Shown here: piece after piece, positions 25,707-42,537 of the stretch | Position numbering within the stretch: position 1 is the stretch's first letter | Layout of the letters: each line of letters opens with the position of its first letter | Assembly (NCBI GenBank): GCA_003167555.1 | Contig: PMSN01000010.1 | Coordinates: forward strand, 16,935-80,934 | DNA from: Spartobacteria bacterium | Lineage (GTDB): Bacteria > Verrucomicrobiota > Verrucomicrobiia > Chthoniobacterales > UBA10450 | DNA length: 64,000 nt | Direction of reading: 5' to 3' | The notes under the pieces: generated by a model | The model's input: the letters and a program-made list of their open reading frames with translations, nothing else | The model's database searches: none | What the model was told of the DNA's origin: nothing | Position numbers and translations under genes: made by a program

Positions 25707-28238
25707 ATGCCTTTTCATTCTTTCATCGCCAAGCTCGTCACTCAGCGCCGCGCCGCGGTCTGGTGGGCGGTCGCGCTGATCAGCGCCGCTTCGATTTACG
25801 TCCTGGTGACGCGGATGAAGCTCGATACCGAGGTGCTCAACCTTCTCCCGACCGGATTCGAATCGGTCGAGGGCCTGAAAGTTTACAACCGCGATTTTTC
25901 GCAAGTGCGCGAGCTGACTTTCGCTCTGGTCTCGCAGCCCGAGGATGTCGACAAGCTGGAGGAATTCGCGCCGCAGTTTGCGCAACGATTGCGCGAACAG
26001 CCATGGTGCACGCGTGTCCTCGCAGGCGCGCCGATCGAAACACCCGAAGGCATTCGCGATTTACAATCGATCGCCGTTCCGCTCCTGCTGAACCTCGAGC
26101 CGGCCGCGTTCAACGAGACGCTCGCGCTCCTCGAACCGCAGAAAATTCGCGAGCGGTTGCAGAGGCTCCATCAGGAATTGGAAGCGGGCTCGCCGCGGCC
26201 GCAGATCGAATTGGGCCTCGATCCGCTCGGTGTCATCGGGCCGGCATTGAAACCTTTCGCCGGCAACGCCGCCATGGAAGAAGACCAGCCTCTCACGTCG
26301 CCCGACCGTACCATGCGCGTCTTCCTCACGGTCACGAACCAGGCGAGCCTCAGCGCGTTCGATTGCCAGAAACTGATGCGGGAAGTGAAAGCATTTCAGC
26401 AATCCGCGCACGAAGGCTGGGACGGCGGCCCGCTTCAAATCCTCGTGACCGGACGCTCCGCCTACGTCGCGGAGATTTCGTTGAGCATGCGGCACGACAT
26501 CGTCATCACGCTGCTCGGCTCGATCGTTTTGGTGGGCGCGGTTTTCTACATCGGGTTTCATCGCTGGCTGCCGCTCCTCGGAATGGGGTTTTCGCTGCTG
26601 CTCTGCTGCCTCGTCGCGCTCGCCGCGGGCCTCCTGATTTTCCACGAGCTCAACATGGTCACGGTCGGATTTTGCGCGATCCTGATCGGCCTCGGAGTCG
26701 ATTTCGCGATTCTGGTTTTTGGCCGTTACCAGCAAGCGCGCGATGAAGGGAGCGATCACACCGCGGCCGTGAGCGAAGCCGTGCTCACGCTCGGGAAAGC
26801 GATTTTTTTCGGCGCGCTCACGACGGCGGTCGGTTTCATGGCGCTGCTTTTGGCGGGCTCGCGCGGATTCACCCAGCTTGGCGTCTTGATCGCGCTCGGC
26901 ATTAGTTTCGCCGGCATCTTTATGCTGACGGTTTTCTTCCTCGTGCTCCCGCGCAAAGCTTCCACGCCGCGGCGCGACTGGATGTTTGACCTCGTGAAAA
27001 AATACGTGCGTTGGACGGTGCGGCGGCCCGGACCAATGCTCTGGATTTCCATTCCCCTCCTTCTCCTTCTCACGGCGATCGCGCTTTCCCCGCGCCCGCC
27101 GATTATCTTCGACGTGAGCACGCACTCGATGGAACCGAAGCGGAGCGACGCCGGTTACGCCCTCAAGACCATCATGGAAAAAATGCCGGCGCGCTGGGAA
27201 CCGGTCATCGGGATGGTGCAGGCGAAAGATCCGCAACAACTGCACGATTACTGGCAGAAGATCGCCGCGCACTGGACCGAAGTGCAGGCGGCCGGAAAAA
27301 TAAAAGGCTTTTCAACTCCGGCGGCGCTGGCCTTATCGCCCGCGCGTTTGCAAACCAACCGGGAAAGGCTCCGAAGCGCAAATCTCTCGGCCGCGCGGGA
27401 CGCGCTCGAAGCCGCGATCGCAGCGGAAGGTTTCAGCCGCGAGACTTTCGATTCCGCTTTCACGTTGCTCGAACAATTGCAGGGCGCGGCTTATCCGTCC
27501 GTGCAATTGCCGGATTGGCGAACGCAATTGCCGCCGGCCTCGAGCTGGTGGTTTCTGGTCGACCGCTATTTCGCGCACGATCCTCTTCTCGCGACGGGAT
27601 TCGTGACGACGAACGAGCCGGTCGCGACCCAGGAGCAAAAGGAAATGCTGCATCGCGAATTGCCCGTCGCGGGAATCCCGATGGTCCTGTCGGGCTGGAG
27701 TTTTACGCTCACGGATTTGGTGCCGTGGTCGCAGCGCCAGCTCATCTTGATCAGCGCGTTGATGGCGATCTTCGACGTCACGCTGCTCGCGGTGCTTTAT
27801 CGCGACTGGCGTCTCTGGCTGATTCAAGTCGCCACCCTCGCCATGGCCGTCTGCGCGATGATCGCATCGATGAAGGTGCTCCAGATCCCGCTCAATCTGC
27901 TCAACGTCCTTGCCTTTCGGCTCGTCCTCGCCATCGGAGTCGATTACGGAATCTATGTGCTTCTGGTCTGGCAAAAAGCGAGGCAGCTCGATCACGATGT
28001 CGCCGGCGTGGTCAAGCCGGTGATTCTGGCCGGCTTGACGGCGATCTGCGGCTTCGGTTCGCTCGGCGCCGCGAACAATCCGACGCTGGCGGGACTGGGT
28101 TACGCGTGCGCGCTTGGTTTGTTCTGGAGCCTGGCCGCGACGATTTTTTTCACTTTGCCCGCGGCGGCTGCGGCTGAACCGAAGTCGTGGCGCGAAGAAT
28201 CTTTGCAGCCACGCGTCAAAGAACCTGAAAATGTTTAA
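25707..28238 (+). CDS. MMPL/RND-superfamily exporter
   Basis: 843-residue inner-membrane transporter with the internal duplication of RND proteins: one helix near the N-terminus, a periplasmic domain (~45-255), five helices (IVITLLGSIVLVGAVFYIGF onwards), a second periplasmic domain (~460-640) and a final helix bundle. The acidic membrane motif IGLGVDFAILVFGRY and its repeat AIGVDYGIYVLLVW are visible. MMPL proteins export lipids and polyketide-like products. It is flanked by a halogenase-like flavoprotein and a LolA-like carrier, the trio often found in aryl-polyene and related clusters. No ketosynthase or acyl carrier gene is in the window. Confidence 0.9.
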   Translation: MPFHSFIAKLVTQRRAAVWWAVALISAASIYVLVTRMKLDTEVLNLLPTGFESVEGLKVYNRDFSQVRELTFALVSQPEDVDKLEEFAPQFAQRLREQPWCTRVLAGAPIETPEGIRDLQSIAVPLLLNLEPAAFNETLALLEPQKIRERLQRLHQELEAGSPRPQIELGLDPLGVIGPALKPFAGNAAMEEDQPLTSPDRTMRVFLTVTNQASLSAFDCQKLMREVKAFQQSAHEGWDGGPLQILVTGRSAYVAEISLSMRHDIVITLLGSIVLVGAVFYIGFHRWLPLLGMGFSLLLCCLVALAAGLLIFHELNMVTVGFCAILIGLGVDFAILVFGRYQQARDEGSDHTAAVSEAVLTLGKAIFFGALTTAVGFMALLLAGSRGFTQLGVLIALGISFAGIFMLTVFFLVLPRKASTPRRDWMFDLVKKYVRWTVRRPGPMLWISIPLLLLLTAIALSPRPPIIFDVSTHSMEPKRSDAGYALKTIMEKMPARWEPVIGMVQAKDPQQLHDYWQKIAAHWTEVQAAGKIKGFSTPAALALSPARLQTNRERLRSANLSAARDALEAAIAAEGFSRETFDSAFTLLEQLQGAAYPSVQLPDWRTQLPPASSWWFLVDRYFAHDPLLATGFVTTNEPVATQEQKEMLHRELPVAGIPMVLSGWSFTLTDLVPWSQRQLILISALMAIFDVTLLAVLYRDWRLWLIQVATLAMAVCAMIASMKVLQIPLNLLNVLAFRLVLAIGVDYGIYVLLVWQKARQLDHDVAGVVKPVILAGLTAICGFGSLGAANNPTLAGLGYACALGLFWSLAATIFFTLPAAAAAEPKSWREESLQPRVKEPENV

Positions 28239-28902
28239 GCATCTATCTACCTCTCTTATCCTTGGTTTTCTCTTCCTCGCTCCGCTCGCATCCGCGGATC
28301 CTCTTTCTCCGGCCGACTTGAAAAGCCTGCTCGCCCGCATCCGGGAGAAACGCGCCGCGGCGCCCCAGGTCCAGGCCGATTTCCAGGAAGAAAAAAATGT
28401 CCGGATGCTGAACAAACCGATCGTGAGCTCCGGCAAAATCTGGTTCCAATCTCCGAACAGATTCCGGCGCGAAGCGAAAGGCAACGCGCCCAGCCTCACG
28501 GTCAGCGATGGCCAGCAGTTATGGATTTATTATCCGAACTTCAAATCGGCCGAGCACTACTCGTTAGGCAAACGCTCGCCGCTCGATGCCGGGATCGCCG
28601 CGATCACGGCCAGTTTGAATCTGGAGAACGTCGAAGCCATTTACCACATCACCGGCGCGAAAGAGTCGGACGGATACCTGCTTCAGCTCGCCCCGCGCAA
28701 TCCCTCGATGAAGCGGCTTCTCCAGACCTTCAGCATCAAGATGAACAATGAATTGCAGGTCGTTCGCACTGAGATGGTGCAACCAAACGGCGACCGGATC
28801 GCTACGACCTACTCGAACGAAACGCGCGCGCCCATACCAGCCTCCACCTTCGAGTTTACACCGCCAGCCGGGACTGACGTGACGACGCCGTTGGGCCGGT
28901 AA
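28231..28902 (+). CDS. LolA-like outer-membrane lipoprotein carrier
   Basis: 223 residues from the ATG at 28231, overlapping the exporter stop by 8 bp. Signal peptide MFKHLSTSLILGFLFLAPLASA, then ADFQEEKNVRMLNKPIVSSGKIWFQSPNRFRRE, the LolA-type opening strand pattern, and VSDGQQLWIYYPNFKSAEHY. Predicted periplasmic, binding acyl chains in an open barrel. Because it is coupled to an MMPL exporter, it more likely carries that exporter's lipid product than bulk lipoproteins (inference). Canonical LolA would be elsewhere in the genome. Confidence 0.85.
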   Translation: MFKHLSTSLILGFLFLAPLASADPLSPADLKSLLARIREKRAAAPQVQADFQEEKNVRMLNKPIVSSGKIWFQSPNRFRREAKGNAPSLTVSDGQQLWIYYPNFKSAEHYSLGKRSPLDAGIAAITASLNLENVEAIYHITGAKESDGYLLQLAPRNPSMKRLLQTFSIKMNNELQVVRTEMVQPNGDRIATTYSNETRAPIPASTFEFTPPAGTDVTTPLGR

Positions 28903-29606: not shown

Positions 29607-30995
29607 ATGTCGCTCATCTTTGAACGCGTTCTCACCGATGGCATCGCCGCAATCTCCTATCTGATCGGCGATGACGAAGAGGGCACCGCCGCCGTTATCG
29701 ATCCGCGGCCCGATGTCGAGATCTATTTGGAGCTGGCGCGCAAGAATGGCGTTTCGATTACGCACATTTTCGAGACGCACATCCATGCCGATCTCGTGAG
29801 CGGCGCGCGCGAGCTGGCGGACCGCACCGGCACCGCGAAAATCTATGCGAGCCGCGAGGGCGGCGCCGAGTACGGTTTCGCGTGCGAGCCGGTGAAGAAT
29901 GGCGACGAATTTGTTTTCCGCGCGCTCATTCTCACAGCGCGCCACACGCCCGGCCACACGCCCGAGCACATCAGCTACGTCGCCGCGGACGACGAGCATC
30001 CTGATTTTCCGTGGGGCGTTTTCACGGGCGATTCGCTTTTCGTCAACTCAGCCGGCCGCCCGGATCTGCTCGGGCGCGACGCGGACAAACTCGCTTCTCA
30101 GCTTTACGACACGCTCTGGGATTTCTACGGCAAGCTCGATGACGGCGTGATCATTCACCCGTCGCACGGAAGCGGTTCGCCCTGCGGCGCGGACATCGGC
30201 GATCGGCTCGAGAGCACGATGGGATTCGAGAAGCGCTTCAATCCTTACTATCAACGGAAGGAGCGAAAAGATTTTGTCGATTACGCGCTGGCCACTCCGC
30301 CGCCGGAGCCGACCTACTACAAGCGGATGAAAAAACTGAATGCGGCCGGGCCCGCGGTGCTGGGCCGGTTACCGATCATCCCGGCGCTGCCCCCGAGAAA
30401 ATTCAAGGAAATGGTGGAGGCCAAGAGCGCGCAGCTCGTGGACACGCGCACGATGCTGGCGTTCGGCGGCGGCCACATCGATGGCGCGCTCAATATCGCC
30501 GCGTCGCCGATCCTCTCGATCTGGGCCGGCTGGCTCCTTGATCCCGAGAAGCCGATTCTTCTCGTGCTCGAAAGCGACAGCGACGCGGAGAAAGTTTCAC
30601 AGCTCTTCGTGCGCACCGGGTACACGAAATTCGCCGGCTATCTGGTCGGCGGGATGCGGGCGTGGCAGAACGCCGGTTATCCGTTGCGCGAATTGCCGCA
30701 AATGACGGTTCACGATCTGCAAAGTTCGCGAAACGGTTTGCAGTTGGTCGACGTGCGCGGGCCCGCCGAATGGAAAAACGGCCGCATCCCCGGCGCAGTT
30801 CACATTTTCCTCCCGCATTTGCAGAAGCGTTCCGGCGAACTCGATCGCGAGCGGCCCGTGCTCCTCTACTGCGCCACAGGATATCGCGCGAGTCTGGCCG
30901 CGAGTGTGCTCGAGCGCGAGGGCTTCTCCGATGTGCGCAACCTGCCGGGAAGTTTCCACGCCTGGAAGGCCGCCAAGTTCCCGGTCGAGAAATAA
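29607..30995 (+). CDS. CstB-like persulfide dioxygenase with two rhodanese domains
   Basis: 462 residues. Residues ~1-245 are a metallo-beta-lactamase persulfide dioxygenase: THIHADLVSGARELADRTG, RHTPGHTPEHISYV, FTGDSLFVNSAGRPDLLG and HPSHGSGSPCG provide the iron ligands. Residues ~260-355 are a rhodanese domain with no active-site Cys (VLESDSDAEKV), and ~360-460 a second one with an intact loop LLYCATGYRAS. This MBL-pseudo-rhodanese-rhodanese order is that of staphylococcal CstB, which oxidises persulfide and forms thiosulfate. Cytoplasmic. The next gene, 15 bp away, is a sulfite oxidase, so the pair would carry sulfane sulfur to sulfate or thiosulfate. Confidence 0.9.
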   Translation: MSLIFERVLTDGIAAISYLIGDDEEGTAAVIDPRPDVEIYLELARKNGVSITHIFETHIHADLVSGARELADRTGTAKIYASREGGAEYGFACEPVKNGDEFVFRALILTARHTPGHTPEHISYVAADDEHPDFPWGVFTGDSLFVNSAGRPDLLGRDADKLASQLYDTLWDFYGKLDDGVIIHPSHGSGSPCGADIGDRLESTMGFEKRFNPYYQRKERKDFVDYALATPPPEPTYYKRMKKLNAAGPAVLGRLPIIPALPPRKFKEMVEAKSAQLVDTRTMLAFGGGHIDGALNIAASPILSIWAGWLLDPEKPILLVLESDSDAEKVSQLFVRTGYTKFAGYLVGGMRAWQNAGYPLRELPQMTVHDLQSSRNGLQLVDVRGPAEWKNGRIPGAVHIFLPHLQKRSGELDRERPVLLYCATGYRASLAASVLEREGFSDVRNLPGSFHAWKAAKFPVEK

Positions 30996-31009
30996 ATCCG
31001 CGCTAATCT

Positions 31010-32095
31010 GTGAAGTCCGCGGATAAACAAAACGATCTGCTGAATGGCCTGATCGTTCGCGAACAAGAGCCGCTTAACCTCGAGATGCCGTTCTCGACGC
31101 TCAGCGGCTTCACTACGCCTAACGAATCCTTTTACGTTCGTTGCCACTTTCCCATTCCCGAGATCGCCGCCGCGGACTGGCGTTTGAAGGTTGAAGGCGA
31201 AGTCGAAGCCCCGTTTGAACTCGGCTACGACGATCTGCTTCAGATGGAGGCGCGCACCGTTCCCGCCACGCTCGAGTGCGCGGGCAACAATCGCATTTTC
31301 CTCGAGCAGAAAGTCAAAGGCGTGCAATGGGAGCTGGGCGCAGTCGGGAACGCCAGTTGGACCGGCGTGCCGCTTTCCGCGTTGCTCGCCCGCGCGAAGG
31401 TGAAGCCCGGCGCCATCGAGGTGATCCTCGAGGGCGCTGATGAAGGCGAGATCGCAAATCCGCCGCGGCCCGCCGGCAAGATTCGTTTCGCGCGCAGTAT
31501 TCCATTAAGCAAAGCGCAGGATGATGTGCTCCTCGCTTACGAAATGAACGGCGAAAAACTTTCGGCCACGCACGGATTCCCGGTCCGCGCGATCGTGCCC
31601 GGCTGGTACGCGATGGCGTCGATCAAATGGCTGGGCCGAATCATTGCCACGAGCAAGCCGTTCGCCGGCTACTACCAATCGATCGATTATTCCTATTGGG
31701 AGCGAACCAGCGGCGAACTGCCGACGCTTAGACCACTCGCGGAGCAACAGCTCAAAGCTGAAATCGCGCGGCCCGAAAACGGCGCGGCGGTGCCCGCGAG
31801 CGCGACCGTCAAAGTTCACGGCGCGGCGTGGGGGGGAGCCGCGGAAATCGCGAAAGTCGAGATCAGCGCCGACGATGGGAGAACCTGGAGCGCCGCGCAA
31901 CTCCTGGGCGAGCCGGTCAAGGACGCGTGGCGGCTTTGGGAATATGATTGGCGGACGCCCGCCACGCCCGGCCCGCAAACTCTCATGGCCCGCGCGACGG
32001 ACTCGCGCGGCCACACCCAATCTCCCGCGCGCAACGCGGACCACGGCACTTACATGATCAGTCACGTCCTGCCGATCCGGGTCGAAGTGCGTTGA
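31010..32095 (+). CDS. Sulfite-oxidase family molybdoenzyme
   Basis: 361 residues from a GTG at 31010. The molybdopterin domain has the Mo-ligating Cys in ATLECAGNNRIFL and the substrate/cofactor stretch THGFPVRAIVPGWYAMASIKWLGR; the C-terminal part (~residues 240-360) is the Ig-like dimerisation domain (ISADDGRTWSAAQL). No haem domain and no twin-arginine signal is visible, so it appears cytoplasmic, unlike SorA/SorT. It probably oxidises sulfite released by the preceding persulfide dioxygenase (inference from adjacency); the electron acceptor is unknown. Confidence 0.9.
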   Translation: MKSADKQNDLLNGLIVREQEPLNLEMPFSTLSGFTTPNESFYVRCHFPIPEIAAADWRLKVEGEVEAPFELGYDDLLQMEARTVPATLECAGNNRIFLEQKVKGVQWELGAVGNASWTGVPLSALLARAKVKPGAIEVILEGADEGEIANPPRPAGKIRFARSIPLSKAQDDVLLAYEMNGEKLSATHGFPVRAIVPGWYAMASIKWLGRIIATSKPFAGYYQSIDYSYWERTSGELPTLRPLAEQQLKAEIARPENGAAVPASATVKVHGAAWGGAAEIAKVEISADDGRTWSAAQLLGEPVKDAWRLWEYDWRTPATPGPQTLMARATDSRGHTQSPARNADHGTYMISHVLPIRVEVR

Positions 32096-32417: not shown

Positions 32418-35400
32418 ATGCAATTGCGTCGTGTTTTTCTCAGGTCAGGGTGGTTAGGCCTCCTCTTCTGTTTCGCAAGCGCGGTGACGGCGCAAGTCAC
32501 GACCGCGCCAAAGCAAGGGATCCGCGAGAACGATCCGCGCCTGCATGCCTTGACGAATGCTCGCATCGTGACGTCGCCTGGAAAAATAATCGAGAAAGGC
32601 ACGATCTTGATTCGCGATGGCGTGATCGTGGCGGCGGGAGCGGATGTGAAAGTCCCGGCCGATGCGCGCGTGTGGGATCTCGCGGGCAAGACAATTTACC
32701 CGGGCTTCATCGACGGATATAGCCGTCTCGGTCTACCGGAAACGCTCCAGCCGGAACCGGCCCGGCCCGACGTCGATTACGACGATCCGAATGCGAAGCC
32801 GAAGGAAGTCCCGCACGAATCGGCCAAGGGAATGCATTCGTGGAATGCGAAAGTCACGCCGGAACGGAGGGCCGCCGATTTCCTGAATCCCGACAAGAAG
32901 TCGATGCGAAAGCTGCGAGATCTTGGTTTTACGAGCGCGCTGGTTGTTCCGGGCCGCGGCATTTTTCGCGGCTCGAGCGCGCTGATCAATCTCCAGGAAG
33001 CGGATGTCACAACGATGGTGGTCGCGCCTTCGGTGGCGCAACACGTCGCGTTCGATTTCTATCGCCGGGACGACGGCGGGTATCCGAATTCGCTCATGGG
33101 TTGCATCGCGCTCATCCGGCAAAATTTTCTCGACGCCTCCTGGTATCAGGCGGCCCAGGATGCGTATCACAAAAATCCGGGAACGACGGAACGGCCGGAG
33201 TCGAACGCGAGTCTGGCGGCGCTGGCGGAGCAAGCGCAACGGAAGCAGCCGACCGTCTTCGAAGCGGACGATGAACTCGAGCTGCTCCGGGCCTTGCGGA
33301 TCGCCGACGAATTCAAACTGAAGCCGCTGCTCTTTGGAAATGGCTACGAATATCGCGTGCGCAAAGCGCTCGCGGAAAAAAAGACGCCGATCATTTTGCC
33401 GCTCGATTTTCCGAAAGCGCCCGAGATCGAGCGGCCGGAGCAAGCATTGGATGTCGAGCTGGATGAACTCCAGCATTGGGACCGCGCACCAAGCAATCCG
33501 GCGCGGCTGGCGGAAAGCGGAATTCCGATCGCTTTCACCGCGGAGAAACTCGAAAAGCCAGAGAAGGAATTTTGGTCGCACGTTCGCCTGGCCGTGCGCC
33601 GCGGACTGAGCGCAGACGCAGCCCTCGCCGCCTTGACCACGACGCCGGCGGAAATGTTCGGGGTGTCCGATCGGCTTGGGACGATCGCGCCGGGCCGCAT
33701 CGCAAACCTGGTGATTGCGAGCGGCGATCTTTTCGGCAGCGAAGCGAAGGTGCTCACGACCTGGATCGACGGATATTATTATGACACCGACCTCGCCGCC
33801 GAACGCGATCCCCGCGGCACCTGGGAAATCGCGACGGAAGGAAAGACGCTGCCGCTGACGATCGAAGGTGAGCTGGAGAAGATGGACGTCAAAGTTGGCG
33901 GCGAAAAAGCAACGCTCTCGACCAAGGAAGACTCCATCCTTCTGGTCGCGCCCGCGAAGCTGTTGGAAAAAGGCGAGGGCTCGATTCGCTTCTCTGGCCG
34001 GATCGCGGGCGAAACAATTACCGGCAGCGGCGAAACTCCGGCGGGCGCTGTGATTCGTTGGAGCGCAAAACGCACGGCTGCTTACACGCCGGCGAAGAAG
34101 CCGGACGAGAAACCTTCGCCGCTGGATAAACCGCTCGATTTTCCTGAGACCTATCCGGCTGGTGCGTTCGGACGCGTCGCGCCGCCGGAGCAGCCGCACT
34201 CCGTGCTCATCCAGGGCGCGACCGTTTGGACTTCCGGCCCGCAAGGCACATTGCAAAATGCGGATCTTCTCGTGACCGATGGAAAGATCGCGGCGGTCGG
34301 CAATGGAGTGAAGGCTCCGTCCGGCGCGACAGTCGTTGACGGCAAGGGCATGCACGTCACGCCGGGCATCGTGGATTGCCATTCGCACACTGCGATCAGC
34401 AAGGGCGTGAACGAAGGCAGTCACGCGGTCACGTGCGAAGTGCGCATCGGCGATGTGATCGATGCGACCGACATTGGGCTTTACCGCGAGCTGGCCGGCG
34501 GCGTCACGTCGGCGAATGTCCTGCACGGCTCGGCGAATCCAATCGGCGGGCAGAATCAGATCATCAAGTTTCGCTGGGGCGCGCTGCCGGAGGAACTGAA
34601 GTTCGCCGATGCGATGCCGGGAGTGAAATTCGCGCTGGGCGAAAACGTAAAGCAGTCGAATTGGGGCGACAAATTCAAAACGCGTTACCCGCAAACGCGG
34701 ATGGGAGTTGAGCAGCTCATTCGCGATCGTTTCCGCGCCGCGCAGGAGTACGACGCGGCGCAGAAAAAGAAGGAGGGCCTGCCGCCGCGCCGCGATCTCC
34801 AGCTCGAAGCGCTTCTCGAGATCGTGAACGGCAAGCGGCTCATCCATTGCCATTCGTATCGCCAGGACGAAGTGCTCATGCTTTTGCGCGTGGCGGAGGA
34901 ATTCAAAATCAAGATCGGCACGTTCCAGCACATTCTGGAGGGCTACAAAGTCGCGGACGAAATCGCGAAGCACGGCGCGGGTGGATCGACGTTTGCCGAT
35001 TGGTGGGCCTACAAATGGGAGGCGTGGGATGCGATCCCGGATAACGCCGCGATGATGCACAGCCGCGGCGTGCTCAGCTCCGTCAATTCCGATAGCGGCG
35101 ACCTCGCGCGCCGGCTCAACACGGAGGCCGGCAAGTCGATGAAATACGGAGGCATGTCGGCGGAGGAAGCGTTGAAGCTCGTGACGATTTATCCGGCCAA
35201 ACAGTTGCACATCGATGGCAAGACCGGCTCGCTCGAAGCGGGCAAGGACGCGGACTTCGTGATCTGGAGCGGCAATCCGCTCTCGAACTACACGAACGTG
35301 AAGCAGACCTGGATCGATGGACGGAAATATTTCGACCGCGCGGAAGACGCCGAAGCGCGCAAGACATTCGCGGCTCAACGCGAAGCGTTAATCCAAAAAG

Positions 35401-35576
35401 CGCTTCCTGAGCGGATGAAGGAATTGGGTTCGGGCGGCAAGGATGGCGATTCGAAGGACAAGAAGGGCGACGAAAAGGAAAAGCCGCCGCGGCACGAGCA
35501 GCATCGCGCGCATGAACTCGAATCGCTCTACGGCGACGGCACGGACAAACACACCTGCACGGAGGAGATCGAGTGA
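32418..35576 (+). CDS. Secreted double amidohydrolase, N-terminal half degenerate
   Basis: 1052 residues: signal peptide (GLLFCFASAVTAQ) then two tandem amidohydrolase-like units. In the first (~45-480) the usual D-x-H-x-H after strand 1 is replaced (IYPGFIDGYSRLGL), so it cannot hold the standard metal site. The second (~595-990) keeps HVTPGIVDCHSHT, KRLIHCHSYRQDE, GTFQHILEG and SSVNSDSGDLARRL, the ligands expected of an imidazolonepropionase/cyclic-amidase type enzyme. A Lys/Glu/Asp-rich tail follows (DGDSKDKKGDEKEKPP). It overlaps the next gene by 4 bp. Periplasmic or surface location is inferred; substrate unknown. Confidence 0.88.
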   Translation: MQLRRVFLRSGWLGLLFCFASAVTAQVTTAPKQGIRENDPRLHALTNARIVTSPGKIIEKGTILIRDGVIVAAGADVKVPADARVWDLAGKTIYPGFIDGYSRLGLPETLQPEPARPDVDYDDPNAKPKEVPHESAKGMHSWNAKVTPERRAADFLNPDKKSMRKLRDLGFTSALVVPGRGIFRGSSALINLQEADVTTMVVAPSVAQHVAFDFYRRDDGGYPNSLMGCIALIRQNFLDASWYQAAQDAYHKNPGTTERPESNASLAALAEQAQRKQPTVFEADDELELLRALRIADEFKLKPLLFGNGYEYRVRKALAEKKTPIILPLDFPKAPEIERPEQALDVELDELQHWDRAPSNPARLAESGIPIAFTAEKLEKPEKEFWSHVRLAVRRGLSADAALAALTTTPAEMFGVSDRLGTIAPGRIANLVIASGDLFGSEAKVLTTWIDGYYYDTDLAAERDPRGTWEIATEGKTLPLTIEGELEKMDVKVGGEKATLSTKEDSILLVAPAKLLEKGEGSIRFSGRIAGETITGSGETPAGAVIRWSAKRTAAYTPAKKPDEKPSPLDKPLDFPETYPAGAFGRVAPPEQPHSVLIQGATVWTSGPQGTLQNADLLVTDGKIAAVGNGVKAPSGATVVDGKGMHVTPGIVDCHSHTAISKGVNEGSHAVTCEVRIGDVIDATDIGLYRELAGGVTSANVLHGSANPIGGQNQIIKFRWGALPEELKFADAMPGVKFALGENVKQSNWGDKFKTRYPQTRMGVEQLIRDRFRAAQEYDAAQKKKEGLPPRRDLQLEALLEIVNGKRLIHCHSYRQDEVLMLLRVAEEFKIKIGTFQHILEGYKVADEIAKHGAGGSTFADWWAYKWEAWDAIPDNAAMMHSRGVLSSVNSDSGDLARRLNTEAGKSMKYGGMSAEEALKLVTIYPAKQLHIDGKTGSLEAGKDADFVIWSGNPLSNYTNVKQTWIDGRKYFDRAEDAEARKTFAAQREALIQKALPERMKELGSGGKDGDSKDKKGDEKEKPPRHEQHRAHELESLYGDGTDKHTCTEEIE

Positions 35577-36874
35577 AGACGCTTGCGGCTGTGATTCTCT
35601 TCGGCCTCGTCGCGAGCAGTTACGCTTCCGACAACATCCCGTCGCCTCCGCAGGCGAAACCGATCGCGTTGAAAGGCGCCACGATTCATCCGGTGAGCGG
35701 CCCGGAGATTCCATCGGGCACGATCGTTTTCGATAAGGGCAAGATCACCGCCATCGGAGCGGACGCAGCCGTTCCCGCGGGAGCGGAAGTGATCGATGTG
35801 ACGGGCAAGCACGTTTATCCCGGGCTCATCAGCGCCAACAGCGTGCTGGGCTTGATTGAGATCGGCGCCGCGCGCGCGACGGTCGATATCGAAGAGACGG
35901 GCGCGATCAATCCGAACGTCCGCGCCGCCGCGAGCATCAATCCCGATAGCGAATTGCTCCCGGTCGCGCGCAGCAACGGCATTCTCACCGTGCACGCGGT
36001 GCCGGAAGGTGGACTCGTTTCCGGCCAATCGGCCGTCATTCGGATGGATGGCTGGACGCCGGAAGAGATGACCGTGCGCTCTCCCGCCGCGATGCATTTG
36101 CGCTGGCCCAACCTGACGATCAATCGCAATCCGCGCGCGCAGAAATCCGTGAAGGACCAGCAAAAGGACATCGACAAAGCGCTGAAACAAATCCGCGGCG
36201 GCTTCCAGACCGCACGCGCTTATTGGCAGGCGAGAAAAAGCGGAACCCCGGGTTTCAAATCCGATCTGAGATGGGAAGCGTTGATGCCGGTCTTCGATGG
36301 CAGTCTGCCGCTGTTTGTCCACGCGGCCACGGCGGCGCAAATCGAAGGGGCGCTCGCGTGGGCCAAAGAGATGCAGTTCAAAATCGTGTTGGTGGGCGGC
36401 AACGATGCGTGGCGGATGGCGCCGCAACTAAAGGAAAGCGGCACGCCCGTTATCATCGCGCTTTCCACGGCGCTTCCACTCCGGCGCGACGACGGCTACG
36501 ACAGCGCGTTCAGTAATGCCGCGAAATTGCATGAGGCCGGCGTCCCTTTCTGCATCGCGATGAACGGGCGCAACTCGGAAGCGCCGCACGAACGAAACCT
36601 TCCCTATGAAGCATCGATGGCGGCGGCCTTCGGGTTGCCGAAAGAAGAAGCGCTGAAAGCGATCACGCTCTATCCGGCCCAGATCCTCGGCGTCGCCGAT
36701 CAGTTGGGATCGTTGGAGACGGGGAAAGCGGCGACGCTCATCGTGACCAACGGCGACCCGCTCGATTTCCCGACGCACATCGAAGCTGCCTACATCGACG
36801 GCCGCAAGATCGATCTCACCAACCGCCAGACTCGCCTCCGCGACAAATATCTCGAAAAGTATCGGCGCAAATAA
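35573..36874 (+). CDS. Amidohydrolase-like secreted protein lacking the metal motif
   Basis: 433 residues from a GTG overlapping the previous stop. Signal peptide MKTLAAVILFGLVASSYA, then the usual beta-domain start (IALKGATIHPVSGPEIPSGTIVF) and end (LGSLETGKAATLIVTNGDPLDFPTHI). As in the first half of its neighbour, the HxH site is missing (VYPGLISANSVLGL), as is the later His/Asp set. It is therefore a likely pseudoenzyme, possibly a structural partner of the 1052-residue protein with which it is translationally coupled. The pair may derive from duplication of one amidohydrolase gene. Confidence 0.85.
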   Translation: MKTLAAVILFGLVASSYASDNIPSPPQAKPIALKGATIHPVSGPEIPSGTIVFDKGKITAIGADAAVPAGAEVIDVTGKHVYPGLISANSVLGLIEIGAARATVDIEETGAINPNVRAAASINPDSELLPVARSNGILTVHAVPEGGLVSGQSAVIRMDGWTPEEMTVRSPAAMHLRWPNLTINRNPRAQKSVKDQQKDIDKALKQIRGGFQTARAYWQARKSGTPGFKSDLRWEALMPVFDGSLPLFVHAATAAQIEGALAWAKEMQFKIVLVGGNDAWRMAPQLKESGTPVIIALSTALPLRRDDGYDSAFSNAAKLHEAGVPFCIAMNGRNSEAPHERNLPYEASMAAAFGLPKEEALKAITLYPAQILGVADQLGSLETGKAATLIVTNGDPLDFPTHIEAAYIDGRKIDLTNRQTRLRDKYLEKYRRK

Positions 36875-37812: not shown

Positions 37813-40416
37813 CTAATAGCGAAACGTGGCTTTGACCCTCCGGGAAACAAAGCAGTAGGGAATCCAAATCGCGGCGGCGACAATCACCTGCACAACGTCT
37901 CTGATGCTGCTGCCGAGCAACTCGGAACCGGCCGCCACTTGCTGCGCCAAGTACGAGTCGAGACTTACGCCGACGAGTAGCAAGAAAAGGAACCAGGCGT
38001 AACAGCGGGGCCAAACGGCGCCTTTCCTGAAGAACAAGACAAGGAGAAGTCCCGAAATCACCAGGCAGATAAGATTGAAAAAAAACTCAAAGAGAAGCAC
38101 CTGCGCCCAATAAGGATGGAAGTGGGCCTGGCCCGGCTGAGTGAAAGACCGCCACGTGTCGAGATTGAAGATAGTCGGGAAAATCGTGACAAGGGAGACC
38201 ATCATGGTGATAGGACGAATCACATGGTGAATACCGACGAGGATGAGCCAGCCTCCGAGTCCTTCCAGCAGACGCGTTGTCGGCGGAGGAGGCGGCAAGG
38301 GTGCAGCTAACTCGCTCTTGTAAACATACAGAGCGCACAACACCATCGTTACGGTCACGACACAACCAGCCAGGAGCGCCACAGGCCAATTAAACTGGCG
38401 AATCCACTTACCAAGTTCGAACGACTGCACTGGCGCCTGATAGGAGAGATTGTAGCCGAGCGTGTCTCTTAGCTTCGACAGCGCTGCGTTGTAAGCCGGA
38501 AGATCGACGGGCGTGACACGATCGGTCAATGCTTCGTAGGCATAGATGAAATGCAAATGGCGGCCCTTCACGCTGGCTTCATCGCTGAAGCGGAAGAACG
38601 CGTTGGTAACGCGGTCATTTTTGATATTAAGCGTCCATTCGTCAAACATCTGCGCGTTAATCTCCTGAATTACGTTAGCCGGATAATTCAAAGCTAGCGG
38701 ATCATCGCGCTGGGACGGGCCGGCTGAACCCATCGCCTCCGCAAGATCGCCCGGATACACGAAAAGTTGATGCTTCTTCGTCTCCTCATTCATTTCCCAA
38801 ATCCCCGGAATGGAATAGAACTCCCTAGTTCGGCAAGCGTTCGCGTCAGGAATTTCTTCGTAAATGAGAGGTTTCTTCACGGTGACGCGGGGAAAACGGC
38901 GCGCGTAATATTGCAAATACTGCTTCTCGATCTTTTCGCGCCCGCTTTCTTGAAATGACGATCGAGTTCTTTCCGCGGAAAGGCCATGCGCTTCAGTGAT
39001 GACTTCGAGTTCCCCGGTTCCCCCTGGCGCTGGCACGCGATAGTTCTCTGTAACTTGTTTTCGGGGGAGAGAATCGCGCGGCGTCGCATATTCCGTCAGC
39101 GTTTTCGTTCCTGCCCGCAGCAGTAATGCCCAACGAAAGTCGCCGACATAGACTTGGGAAAGCGGTCCGCGCTGACTCGACCGCGTAGCATCAAGCCAGT
39201 GAATCTCGTTGCCCTTTCTGACCTGGACAATGGCGTGGTCGAAATCCTCGGGAGCCGGCAGCAAGTCGGCCAGCGTGCCACGGTAATTCGTGCTCACGAG
39301 AGCCGGGATCGCTTCGATGCCGGACTGTTGCAAGAGGGTCACGAGCAGCAAAGCTTTGTCCTTACAATCGCCGAAGCGCCGTCGAAGCACTTCACTGGGC
39401 GCAGTTGGTCGATGTGAACTAACGCCCGATTCGATGCCAAGATAGCGAATGTCTTCCTGCACCAATCGCAGCGCAGCCAGAATCCGTTTCTCGACATCCG
39501 CGATCTGCCGGAGCTTGCCGATTTCGGTTTGTAGATCGGATGAGAGGGGGCCTGTGCTCTGAAAGAGAGGCACCGCCCAATCGACTAACTCCTGCCAGCT
39601 CTCGAATTCGCTGACCTGAAGCCACCCATTGGGATCATAATCTCGCGGAACGTCCGGATCGGTCCGGCGCGCCGGGACATGCGTCTGGTCGCACAACCAT
39701 TCAGTCGTTCCTTTTGCCGTGGTCACGGTGGGCTTGAGCGATCTGTTCTTGTTGAGGAAGTGGAGCTTGCGGTGCGCTGGATAAACGAATCGGGTCACAG
39801 CTCGGTGCACCGGGAAATTCCAATCGGTGTAGTATATTTTCGAATACCGTCCGTTCTTAACCGGGTTAGTTCCTTGGATGGTGTAGGCGAACTCGATGAC
39901 ATCGCCCACTCGTACGTCTTCGATCTCGCACTGAGCCGTGTAAGCGCCGTCGTAAACAAACGATTCCATGTCTTTCTCGCGCTGAAGCAGTTTGATCTGG
40001 CCACGATCGAGCCGGTTCACGCGCACGCCCTTGCGAGTGACGTGAAGAAAATGAAAGATCAGCTCTTGATAGGAAGGGTCGAAGGAGACGGTCACGGCCG
40101 CCCCATTCTGCACACCGTTATCGGAACTAATTTGCCGCGCTTCGTGGTAGTAAAAGGTTTGCAGATCCACATTGTCCTGGCGGTCGACCACCAAGTAGGA
40201 AATGCCGCCGCTCTCTTCATCGTTTCCGCCTGGCATAGGAAGAACCGGCTTCACCCACTCAGGAACGGCAGCAATCCTGAGGGAATTCTCCGGTCCTCCC
40301 GTCTCGGCCGCCAACGCAGGCGAGGCAGCGACACAGGAAAACAACAACGCGACAATGAAACTGGTCGGGCGCGCGATGGCCGCTCTTCTGTTGAATGGGA
40401 AGCGAAGGGAGGTCAC
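37813..40416 (-). CDS. DUF3857/transglutaminase-core membrane protein
   Basis: About 867 residues from the GTG at 40416 (a TTG at 40440 is the track choice). Signal peptide ending SCVAASPALA, then a DUF3857 domain (~60-230), a transglutaminase core with catalytic Cys in RRRFGDCKDKALLLVTLLQQ, His in DFDHAIVQVRKG and Asp in HWLDATRSSQ, then a beta-rich region, and four to five C-terminal membrane helices (PVALLAGCVVTVTMVLCALYVY onward). Catalytic domain in the periplasm, anchored at the C-terminus. Such proteins are common in Bacteroidetes and Verrucomicrobia; substrate unknown. Confidence 0.85.
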   Translation of the reverse strand: MTSLRFPFNRRAAIARPTSFIVALLFSCVAASPALAAETGGPENSLRIAAVPEWVKPVLPMPGGNDEESGGISYLVVDRQDNVDLQTFYYHEARQISSDNGVQNGAAVTVSFDPSYQELIFHFLHVTRKGVRVNRLDRGQIKLLQREKDMESFVYDGAYTAQCEIEDVRVGDVIEFAYTIQGTNPVKNGRYSKIYYTDWNFPVHRAVTRFVYPAHRKLHFLNKNRSLKPTVTTAKGTTEWLCDQTHVPARRTDPDVPRDYDPNGWLQVSEFESWQELVDWAVPLFQSTGPLSSDLQTEIGKLRQIADVEKRILAALRLVQEDIRYLGIESGVSSHRPTAPSEVLRRRFGDCKDKALLLVTLLQQSGIEAIPALVSTNYRGTLADLLPAPEDFDHAIVQVRKGNEIHWLDATRSSQRGPLSQVYVGDFRWALLLRAGTKTLTEYATPRDSLPRKQVTENYRVPAPGGTGELEVITEAHGLSAERTRSSFQESGREKIEKQYLQYYARRFPRVTVKKPLIYEEIPDANACRTREFYSIPGIWEMNEETKKHQLFVYPGDLAEAMGSAGPSQRDDPLALNYPANVIQEINAQMFDEWTLNIKNDRVTNAFFRFSDEASVKGRHLHFIYAYEALTDRVTPVDLPAYNAALSKLRDTLGYNLSYQAPVQSFELGKWIRQFNWPVALLAGCVVTVTMVLCALYVYKSELAAPLPPPPPTTRLLEGLGGWLILVGIHHVIRPITMMVSLVTIFPTIFNLDTWRSFTQPGQAHFHPYWAQVLLFEFFFNLICLVISGLLLVLFFRKGAVWPRCYAWFLFLLLVGVSLDSYLAQQVAAGSELLGSSIRDVVQVIVAAAIWIPYCFVSRRVKATFRY

Positions 40417-40500
40417 TATTAATTGGTCAAACGGCGACAAGCGCGAAGACCGGTAACTCAGCCGTCTGGCGGAATCAACGAAGAACCATCAGGAATCGGA

Positions 40501-42537
40501 CTAGTTTGTTCCAGCAACCGCGGCGGTCTTTAGATACTTGTCGAGAAAATCGAGGATCGCTTTGTTACCGCGAATCTCGTTCGCCCGCTTGCTGAAACCG
40601 TGGCCTTCGTTGTCGAAGACGACGTATTCCACGACGCCGTTCTTTTTCTTGATCGCGTCCACGATCTCGTCGGACTCCGGCTTGATGACGCGCGGATCGT
40701 TGGCGCCCTGCAAGACGATGAGCGGCTTGGTGATCTTGTCGGCGTGGAAGAGCGGCGAAATTTCCCGTAACATCTCCATCTGCGTGTTCGGATCGCCGAT
40801 CTCAGCATAGAGCGATTTCCGTTGCGATTCCCAGTAAGGCGGGATGCTTTGCAAGGTTCGGACCCAGTTCGACACGCCGAAGATATCGACTCCGGCGTTG
40901 AATTCCTCCGGCTTAAAGGCGAGCGCCGCCAGTACCATGTAGCCGCCGTACGAGCCGCCCATGATTCCGATCTTCTTACCGTCCACGTAATCGAGTGACT
41001 GAAGATACTTCTTCGCTTCGACACAATCCCACAGCGGCTCGCGTCCATGCTTCTGATCGTCCGCCTTGTAGAACGTCTTGCCGTAACCGCTCGAGCCGCG
41101 GTTGTTCACGTCGAGCACGGCATAACCGTGGTTCACCAGATACTGCACGCTCGCGATGTAAGGCATCCGCGCCTGGCCTCCCGGGCCGCCATGCACACGC
41201 ACGATGGCCGGCACTTTGTTCTGCGCGCTGGCGCCGTGGGGCTGATAGCGAATGGCGGGAATTTCCGTTCCGTCGAAAGATTTGTAGCGCACCACGCGGG
41301 AGTCGACGAGATCGGCCGCGTTGATTTCCGGGCTCAAGCTTTCCGTGAGCTTGAGCGGTTTCTGCGTCGCGAAATCGTAAACAAACAAATTGCCCGGCGA
41401 GCGCGCGCCGTCGTGATAAAAAGCCATCTTCGTTTCGCTCTCCGAGATATTGACTCCGGTGATATCGCCTTCGGGGAGCGGCGGCAGTGGAACAAGCTTC
41501 CCAGTGGCTTCTTCGGAAATCTTGATCTTCGTCCGCGCGTCTTCATTCGTGGCGACGACGCGATACTTCCCGTTGTGCGAGAACGCCATGTAGGAAACAT
41601 CCCAAGCCGCTTTCTCGGCCACGTCGCGCTTTCCCGTAGTGAGGTCATAACGTGCGATGTATTTGAACTCGCCGCCTTCGTCCGAAAGGAAGTAAAGATT
41701 CTTCGAGTTCACATCGAAAGTCGCGGGGGTGTTGTCCACGTCCCCAGTGTGCGGCGTGATGTTCTTCATCTCTTTCGTAGCGGTGTTGTAGAGATAAACG
41801 TCCGAGTCGGCCGTCGAACTTCCGGGCTTGCCGAAGGCGAGGAACTTCTTGTCGTTCGAGATGTCGCCGAACTGGTAGCCGGTCTCGTCCTGGTAGAGCA
41901 GCACCGGTTTTAGATCGGCGATGCTCATTTCGAAGATGTCGAAAAACTTCGGATCACGCGCGTTGGTCGAGAGGAAGAACGACTTCCGGTCCTGGCTCCA
42001 GCCGAGGAAATTCGCTTTCGTCTTATCGCCGGGAGTCAGGTCGCGCTCCATGCCGTCGAGTTCTTTCAGGTAGAGGTGGTCGTTTTCGTTCCCACCCTTG
42101 TCGTAGCTATAGAGGAACCGCGCGTCGCCGGGGAAATAGGAGACGGCATAAGTGCTCTCCTTCGTGGAATTGGTGAGCTGCTTCGCTTCCCCGCCCGCGA
42201 CCGGCATCGTGTAGACATTGAAGATTCCGGTCTTGTTGCTGTGAAAGAGAATCGATTTCTCGTCGGCGGAGAACGAGCTCCCGCCGATGCGCGTCGTGCT
42301 CATGAATTGCTCGATGGTGTATTGCTTAACGGCGGTGGTGTCGGCTGGCTTCGGCGGCGCTTTCTTTGTGCTCTCCGGTGTCTGTTTCGTGACCAATGCC
42401 TTGTTCGACACGTCGGGTTTCCGTTCGACTGCCGGCTTTTGCGCGCGTGCGTTTGTAACCGCTACTGCTGCACAAAGGGTTACGACCAGCAGAGATTTGT
42501 CGGCCGCACGTTTTAGAAAGAAGTTGTTTGGATTCAT
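40501..42537 (-). CDS. S9-family serine peptidase (acylaminoacyl/dipeptidyl peptidase type)
   Basis: 678 residues with a probable signal sequence (SLLVVTLCAAVAVTNARA) and a Pro/Lys-rich linker. The beta-propeller domain occupies ~75-420 (repeated YxLSxDxK-like blades) and the alpha/beta-hydrolase domain ~430-675. Nucleophile Ser is in IMGGSYGGYMVLAALAF, the Asp in LQGANDPRVIKPESDE, and the His in DNEGHGFSKRANE; the oxyanion-side motif RVHGGPGGQARMPY is also present. Predicted periplasmic oligopeptidase. It stands as a separate unit downstream of the acyltransferase region. Confidence 0.92.
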   Translation of the reverse strand: MNPNNFFLKRAADKSLLVVTLCAAVAVTNARAQKPAVERKPDVSNKALVTKQTPESTKKAPPKPADTTAVKQYTIEQFMSTTRIGGSSFSADEKSILFHSNKTGIFNVYTMPVAGGEAKQLTNSTKESTYAVSYFPGDARFLYSYDKGGNENDHLYLKELDGMERDLTPGDKTKANFLGWSQDRKSFFLSTNARDPKFFDIFEMSIADLKPVLLYQDETGYQFGDISNDKKFLAFGKPGSSTADSDVYLYNTATKEMKNITPHTGDVDNTPATFDVNSKNLYFLSDEGGEFKYIARYDLTTGKRDVAEKAAWDVSYMAFSHNGKYRVVATNEDARTKIKISEEATGKLVPLPPLPEGDITGVNISESETKMAFYHDGARSPGNLFVYDFATQKPLKLTESLSPEINAADLVDSRVVRYKSFDGTEIPAIRYQPHGASAQNKVPAIVRVHGGPGGQARMPYIASVQYLVNHGYAVLDVNNRGSSGYGKTFYKADDQKHGREPLWDCVEAKKYLQSLDYVDGKKIGIMGGSYGGYMVLAALAFKPEEFNAGVDIFGVSNWVRTLQSIPPYWESQRKSLYAEIGDPNTQMEMLREISPLFHADKITKPLIVLQGANDPRVIKPESDEIVDAIKKKNGVVEYVVFDNEGHGFSKRANEIRGNKAILDFLDKYLKTAAVAGTN

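Follow-up and report, generated by a model that had tools for sequence, protein, structure and literature searches.

Two overlapping genes of a Spartobacteria bacterium, here called A and B, probably encode an exported hetero-oligomeric metallo-amidohydrolase, in which the second half of A (AC) would be the sole catalyst and the first half of A (AN) and the B protein obligate pseudo-subunits. The genes lie in a window of 64,000 nucleotides, by which the whole stretch of DNA analysed is meant. A live copy and two dead companions recur in hundreds of bacterial genomes from several phyla. Inactive enzyme copies are commonly written off as decay; in this case two of them are kept with a live domain, separate, part-fused or fully fused, and such a set makes the question of pseudoenzyme retention directly testable.

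Domains and metal sites of A and B

The locus contains the following features.

32418..35576, + strand: gene A, 1052 aa, with AN (dead), a beta module and AC (live)
32418..32492, + strand: predicted export signal of A (heuristic), formed by residues 1-25, in which AQ comes after a hydrophobic helix at 4-24
32538..33788, + strand: AN, amidohydrolase-fold domain without metal ligands (alignment and predicted fold)
33816..34082, + strand: inter-domain beta module of A, residues 467-555, about eight strands (AlphaFold2 model)
34185..35342, + strand: AC, the live domain; best PDB match 3ooq (E=3e-52)
34380..34388, + strand: HxH motif of AC, H655/H657, on beta strand 1 (alignment; invariant in 83/83)
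34626..34643, + strand: K737 and E742 of AC on beta strand 4, candidate ligands with a putative role
34638..34697, + strand: AC loop 741-760, strongly conserved; pLDDT 52-53 in isolated A
34851..34853, + strand: H812 of AC, ligand on beta strand 5 (alignment)
34929..34931, + strand: H838 of AC, ligand on beta strand 6 (alignment)
34998..35027, + strand: AC loop 861-870, DWWAYKWEAW, second most conserved block of A; pLDDT 49
35091..35093, + strand: D892 of AC, ligand on beta strand 8 (alignment)
35573..36874, + strand: gene B, 433 aa, GTG start; dead amidohydrolase-fold protein with its own predicted export signal
35861..35902, + strand: B loop 97-110 after strand 1, holding the invariant D105 and E108; low pLDDT in isolated B

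The two genes overlap by 4 bases. Pfam Amidohydro_1/3 matches were obtained in two stretches of A and in B, and the inter-domain beta module gave no match in a Pfam search. The AlphaFold2 models of A alone (pLDDT 87.9, pTM 0.87) and of B alone (pLDDT 93.4, pTM 0.91) both have 3ooq as their best structural match, and in these models AN, AC and B are all predicted to adopt the amidohydrolase fold, a (beta/alpha)8 barrel with a flanking composite beta domain.

Alignment with 3ooq places H655, H657, H812, H838 and D892 of AC at the five principal ligand positions, with K737 and E742 as candidates for the ligand on strand 4. Scored against H655, H657, H812, H838 and D892, AN keeps none of the five positions (Y101, R103, E282, G307, E376) and B keeps one (N89, V91, H250, G275, N331). 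The same scoring was applied to the best 80 of at least 572 relatives from a scan of species genomes, together with three from the window's phylum. All five ligands are present in 83 of 83 AC and in none of the 83 AN or 69 B. In this sample, AN retains no ligand in 65 cases, one in 14 and two in 4, and B none in 30, one in 31 and two in 8; glycine replaces H838 in 70/83 AN and 63/69 B, and glutamate or aspartate occupies the H812 position in 59/83 AN. Since AC is always complete and AN and B never are, the dead sites are not a matter of chance or of a sequencing fault. Additional loci gave the same picture: all 43 AC-scored rows outside the pair system described below read HHKEHHD (42 from these systems and one, L175, a homomeric single), and a full ligand set was found in no AN and no B.

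An earlier note on this DNA had claimed that the first half of A lacks an HxH motif, that the second half has a full ligand set and that the downstream gene is another amidohydrolase without HxH, so that one of three copies appears catalytic. The alignment on the AC ligands, the Pfam match of B and the residues N89 and V91 at its HxH positions agree with this. The dead sites, whose conservation among relatives the note had proposed to survey, are dead throughout the 83 AN and 69 B. Alternative metal ligands, which it had named as the finding that would overturn its reading, did not emerge: no conserved substitute set exists in these AN or B, in which the residues at ligand positions differ between genomes apart from the near-constant glycine for H838. 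Taken at the level of sequence, AN and B thus appear to be metal-less copies and AC the sole intact metal site. K737 is the likelier bridging ligand on strand 4, because the live copies of the sister pair system keep the lysine but have threonine for E742. Cog1228 prolidases use a carboxylated lysine at this ligand position.

Distribution, gene architecture and descent

The best 80 of the relatives belong to Verrucomicrobiota, Planctomycetota, Bacteroidota, Neomarinimicrobiota, Zixibacteria, KSB1, the Idiomarina group and others; no relatives were detected in the viral contigs searched. The system is patchy in the window's own lineage, since B was found at strong E-values in 3 of 195 genomes sampled from the phylum and the system was absent from the two sampled genomes of the family.

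The domain order AN-AC-B is constant and the gene boundaries shift. The arrangement of the window, AN-AC followed by B, is that of most loci. Three separate genes occur at L130-L134, L138-L140 and L142, AN followed by an AC-B fusion at L156-L160, L167 and L171, and single AN-AC-B chains of 1321-1663 aa at L148-L152, L155, L166 and L168. Some Planctomycetota (L176-L180) have AC+B gene pairs with no detectable AN, so AN is not universally needed, and these pairs are possibly a stage on the way from homomeric enzymes to the triple. There are also homomeric relatives of a single domain whose sites are complete. In a sister system, one live and one dead gene stand in tandem (23 loci), and the ligands of the live copy read HHKTHHD in 23/23. 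At L190, L191 and L192 the live and dead genes of this pair are apparently fused into one chain of 833-904 aa.

The dead paralogue accompanies the live one in the samples tested, with the exception of a single genome. All 18 genomes with a known A also have B, and in 11 B was not found adjoining A. A sample of 118 genomes from the Flavobacterium phylum comprised 65 with AC and B, 52 with neither, none with B but without AC and one, G219, with AC but without B; in some of the sample, among them G255 and G271, A and B share a contig at a distance of about 1 Mb or more. These counts, like those of the other two samples, come from related genomes and do not represent independent events. The A of G219 is truncated (L145:5977-13548): it is cut within AC at about residue 855 and runs into an open frame of 2523 aa, the rest of which has no Pfam match. 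Among 119 genomes sampled from the Pirellulaceae phylum, AC was present in 33 of the 33 with B; six apparent AC-only genomes were rejected, as reading of the loci revealed B in each.

These data bear on the suggestion, made earlier, that translational coupling of A and B points to a hetero-complex. The complex itself gains support from co-occurrence, retention of unlinked B and fusions. The coupling is weak evidence, because the junction is not constant, with overlapping ends in some loci and spacers of about 100 bases in others, and because B need not be near A at all.

A tree of 102 domains gives a clade of its own, with support 100, to AN, AC, B and each of the live and dead copies of the pair (pair-LIVE and pair-DEAD); the dead types AN, B and pair-DEAD group together (support 99). 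This topology would fit a single ancient loss of the metal site, with duplication afterwards. The first tree placed pair-LIVE nearer the dead clade than AC. Holding AC and pair-LIVE together is not rejected (p-AU 0.65) and gives a higher likelihood, so that a split into a live and a dead lineage describes the data no less well. The dN/dS values are 0.069 for AN, 0.088 for AC and 0.025 for B, figures that rest on two close single-chain orthologues; in the Idiomarina-group and Robertkochia pairs dS is saturated. Selection on the dead domains is strongly purifying, to the same degree as on the live one.

The gene surroundings give no pathway, because nothing recurs near A except an ABC-type ATPase in 9 loci. 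In the window, a metallo-beta-lactamase/double-rhodanese protein and, immediately after it, a SorA/SoxC-like sulfite dehydrogenase homologue (29607-32095; below the NCBIfam cut-offs) look like a pair for the oxidation of sulfide or persulfide to sulfate. At 25707-28902 a LolA-like periplasmic carrier comes after an HpnN/MMPL-like RND transporter, and the two may be a lipid export pair. On the opposite strand, 37813-40440 encodes a DUF3857 - transglutaminase-like - DUF2569 membrane protein, and 40501-42537, close to the amidohydrolase genes, an S9 prolyl oligopeptidase-family protein that is not conserved as a neighbour at other loci.

Possible roles of the dead copies

In the proposed mechanism, AC, with an HxH / (K) / H / H / D site of the cog1228/3ooq type, would be the only catalytic domain. 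AN and B would be ancient metal-less copies that are kept as obligate pseudo-subunits, assemble with AC outside the cytoplasm and help to fold or complete the live active site. The substrate may be peptide-like or an amide, a guess by analogy with the superfamily. Physical assembly is indirectly suggested by the AN-AC-B and AC-B fusions. The recurrence of one live and two dead copies across phyla, sometimes as a single chain, argues that the dead copies are almost certainly working parts of one exported enzyme. A signal-sequence heuristic was positive for 77 of 83 A, 62 of 69 B and 24 of 24 separately encoded parts, but also for 167 of 362 control ORFs. As all parts appear to carry export signals by this heuristic, a cytoplasmic regulatory role is unlikely.

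When the termini and the variable insertions are set aside, low model confidence is confined to three stretches, all of them well conserved: AC 741-760, AC 861-870 and B 91-110, in which residues 97-108 fall below a pLDDT of 50 in the model of isolated B. The models suggest that the two AC loops and the DxxE loop of B are probably ordered only in the complex, although low pLDDT in loops may equally come from alignment gaps. In the loop after strand 1 of B, D105 is invariant (115/115), and E96 and E108 are nearly so. This loop comprises 25-27 residues in homomeric singles, 25-26 in B and 26-29 in pair-DEAD, as against 17-19 in pair-LIVE and 16-21 in the AC of AN-containing systems; AN-less AC has 26. 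DxxE is found in it in 8/8 singles, 31/33 B and 15/23 pair-DEAD, and in 1/31 AC and 4/23 pair-LIVE; in AN the loop is variable. Dead partners therefore keep a DxxE loop that live partners have lost, which is a hint, not proof, of a shared active site. The presence of a dead partner does not explain the short AC loop by any clean rule: AN-less AC paired with B still has the long loop, so the loss tracks AN and not B. Tentatively, the duplication of a homomeric enzyme might have been followed by complementary loss, of the acidic loop in the live lineage and of the metal site in the dead one, with completion in trans. If this is true, dead paralogues complete an active site in trans and have persisted across phyla as pairs, triples and fusions.

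The dead domains might instead serve as pure scaffolding, replacing the other subunits of an ancestral homo-oligomer and contributing directly neither to catalysis nor to the binding of substrate. This is a reasonable possibility, if not the one we favour: homomeric relatives with complete sites exist, among them 3ooq, crystallised as 10 chains, the pocket residues of AN vary among homologues, and a dead amidohydrolase relative is required to assemble Pseudomonas ATCase (PMC7053772). The B loop with its invariant D105 (115/115) and conserved E108 and the complementary loop pattern nevertheless suggest more than scaffolding. The earlier note had envisaged dead copies that are structural or bind a ligand, perhaps as a substrate-sensing shell; a shell of this kind, sensing or regulatory, could take up substrate or an effector through its dead domains. 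The dead copies do keep their fold, as the confident model of B illustrates, and each type shows its own conserved motifs, GxGxEY in AN and GGxDAW and RN in B. We consider such a shell unlikely, given that the former ligand positions vary among homologues, that the surroundings contain no conserved sensor, receptor or regulator and that all parts appear, by the heuristic, to be exported. The data are better accounted for if the dead copies are structural partners, which might also complete the active site of the live one, than if they form a sensing shell.

Acidic residues are frequent at the AN ligand positions, as at that of H812, and could be read as a sign that the dead domains run a different, metal-independent reaction or hold an unrecognised metal site. 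With no replacement set conserved across AN or across B, and mostly glycine for H838, this is very improbable. That the dead copies are neutral leftovers kept by chance operon linkage would agree with the adjacency or overlap of A and B in most genomes; it is hardly credible and already contradicted by the retention of unlinked B, the fusions, the dN/dS of the dead domains (0.025-0.069) and the spread over many phyla.

Comparison with known systems

The closest relative of solved structure is the uncharacterised, cog1228-like 3ooq of Thermotoga maritima, the best match in sequence and fold of both AC (E 3e-52, 34% identical) and B (E 6.5e-42, 28% identical). It shares the HxH/K/E/H/H/D pattern with AC, but is one gene and one domain with an intact metal site, crystallised as copies of one chain with no dead partner. 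The cog1228 prolidases and carboxypeptidases (Cc2672 3mtw, 3n2c/3feq, 2qs8; NF051886) belong to the same superfamily, have the same ligand pattern and give partial profile matches; they are homomeric, and their foldseek similarity is far below that of 3ooq. The Xaa-Pro dipeptidase model NF051886 scores 102 bits against a cut-off of 500, and the imidazolonepropionase HutI (TIGR01224), a partial match from the same superfamily but without tandem dead copies, 94.5 against 298.15 bits. No NCBIfam model reaches its cut-off for the window proteins, and four homologues had no match at 1e-30. The amidohydrolase-type bile salt hydrolase MetalloBSH, likened to A and B by its description, is secreted and metal-dependent and occurs in tandem gene copies; an inactive partner is not mentioned in the parts of the source consulted (PMC13081902).

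No example in which a live amidohydrolase and one or two dead paralogues form a conserved unit turned up in the families, structures and papers searched, which cover only part of the literature. This affects annotation, as the dead parts match amidohydrolase family models and no curated model or solved structure was found that describes the set. The need of an enzyme for a dead amidohydrolase-fold subunit is known already from the ATCase-pseudo-dihydroorotase of P. aeruginosa, in which a metal-less chain of the superfamily is needed for the assembly and activity of its partner (PMC7053772). There, the active partner (ATCase) has an unrelated fold, whereas the two dead copies described here are paralogues of their live partner.
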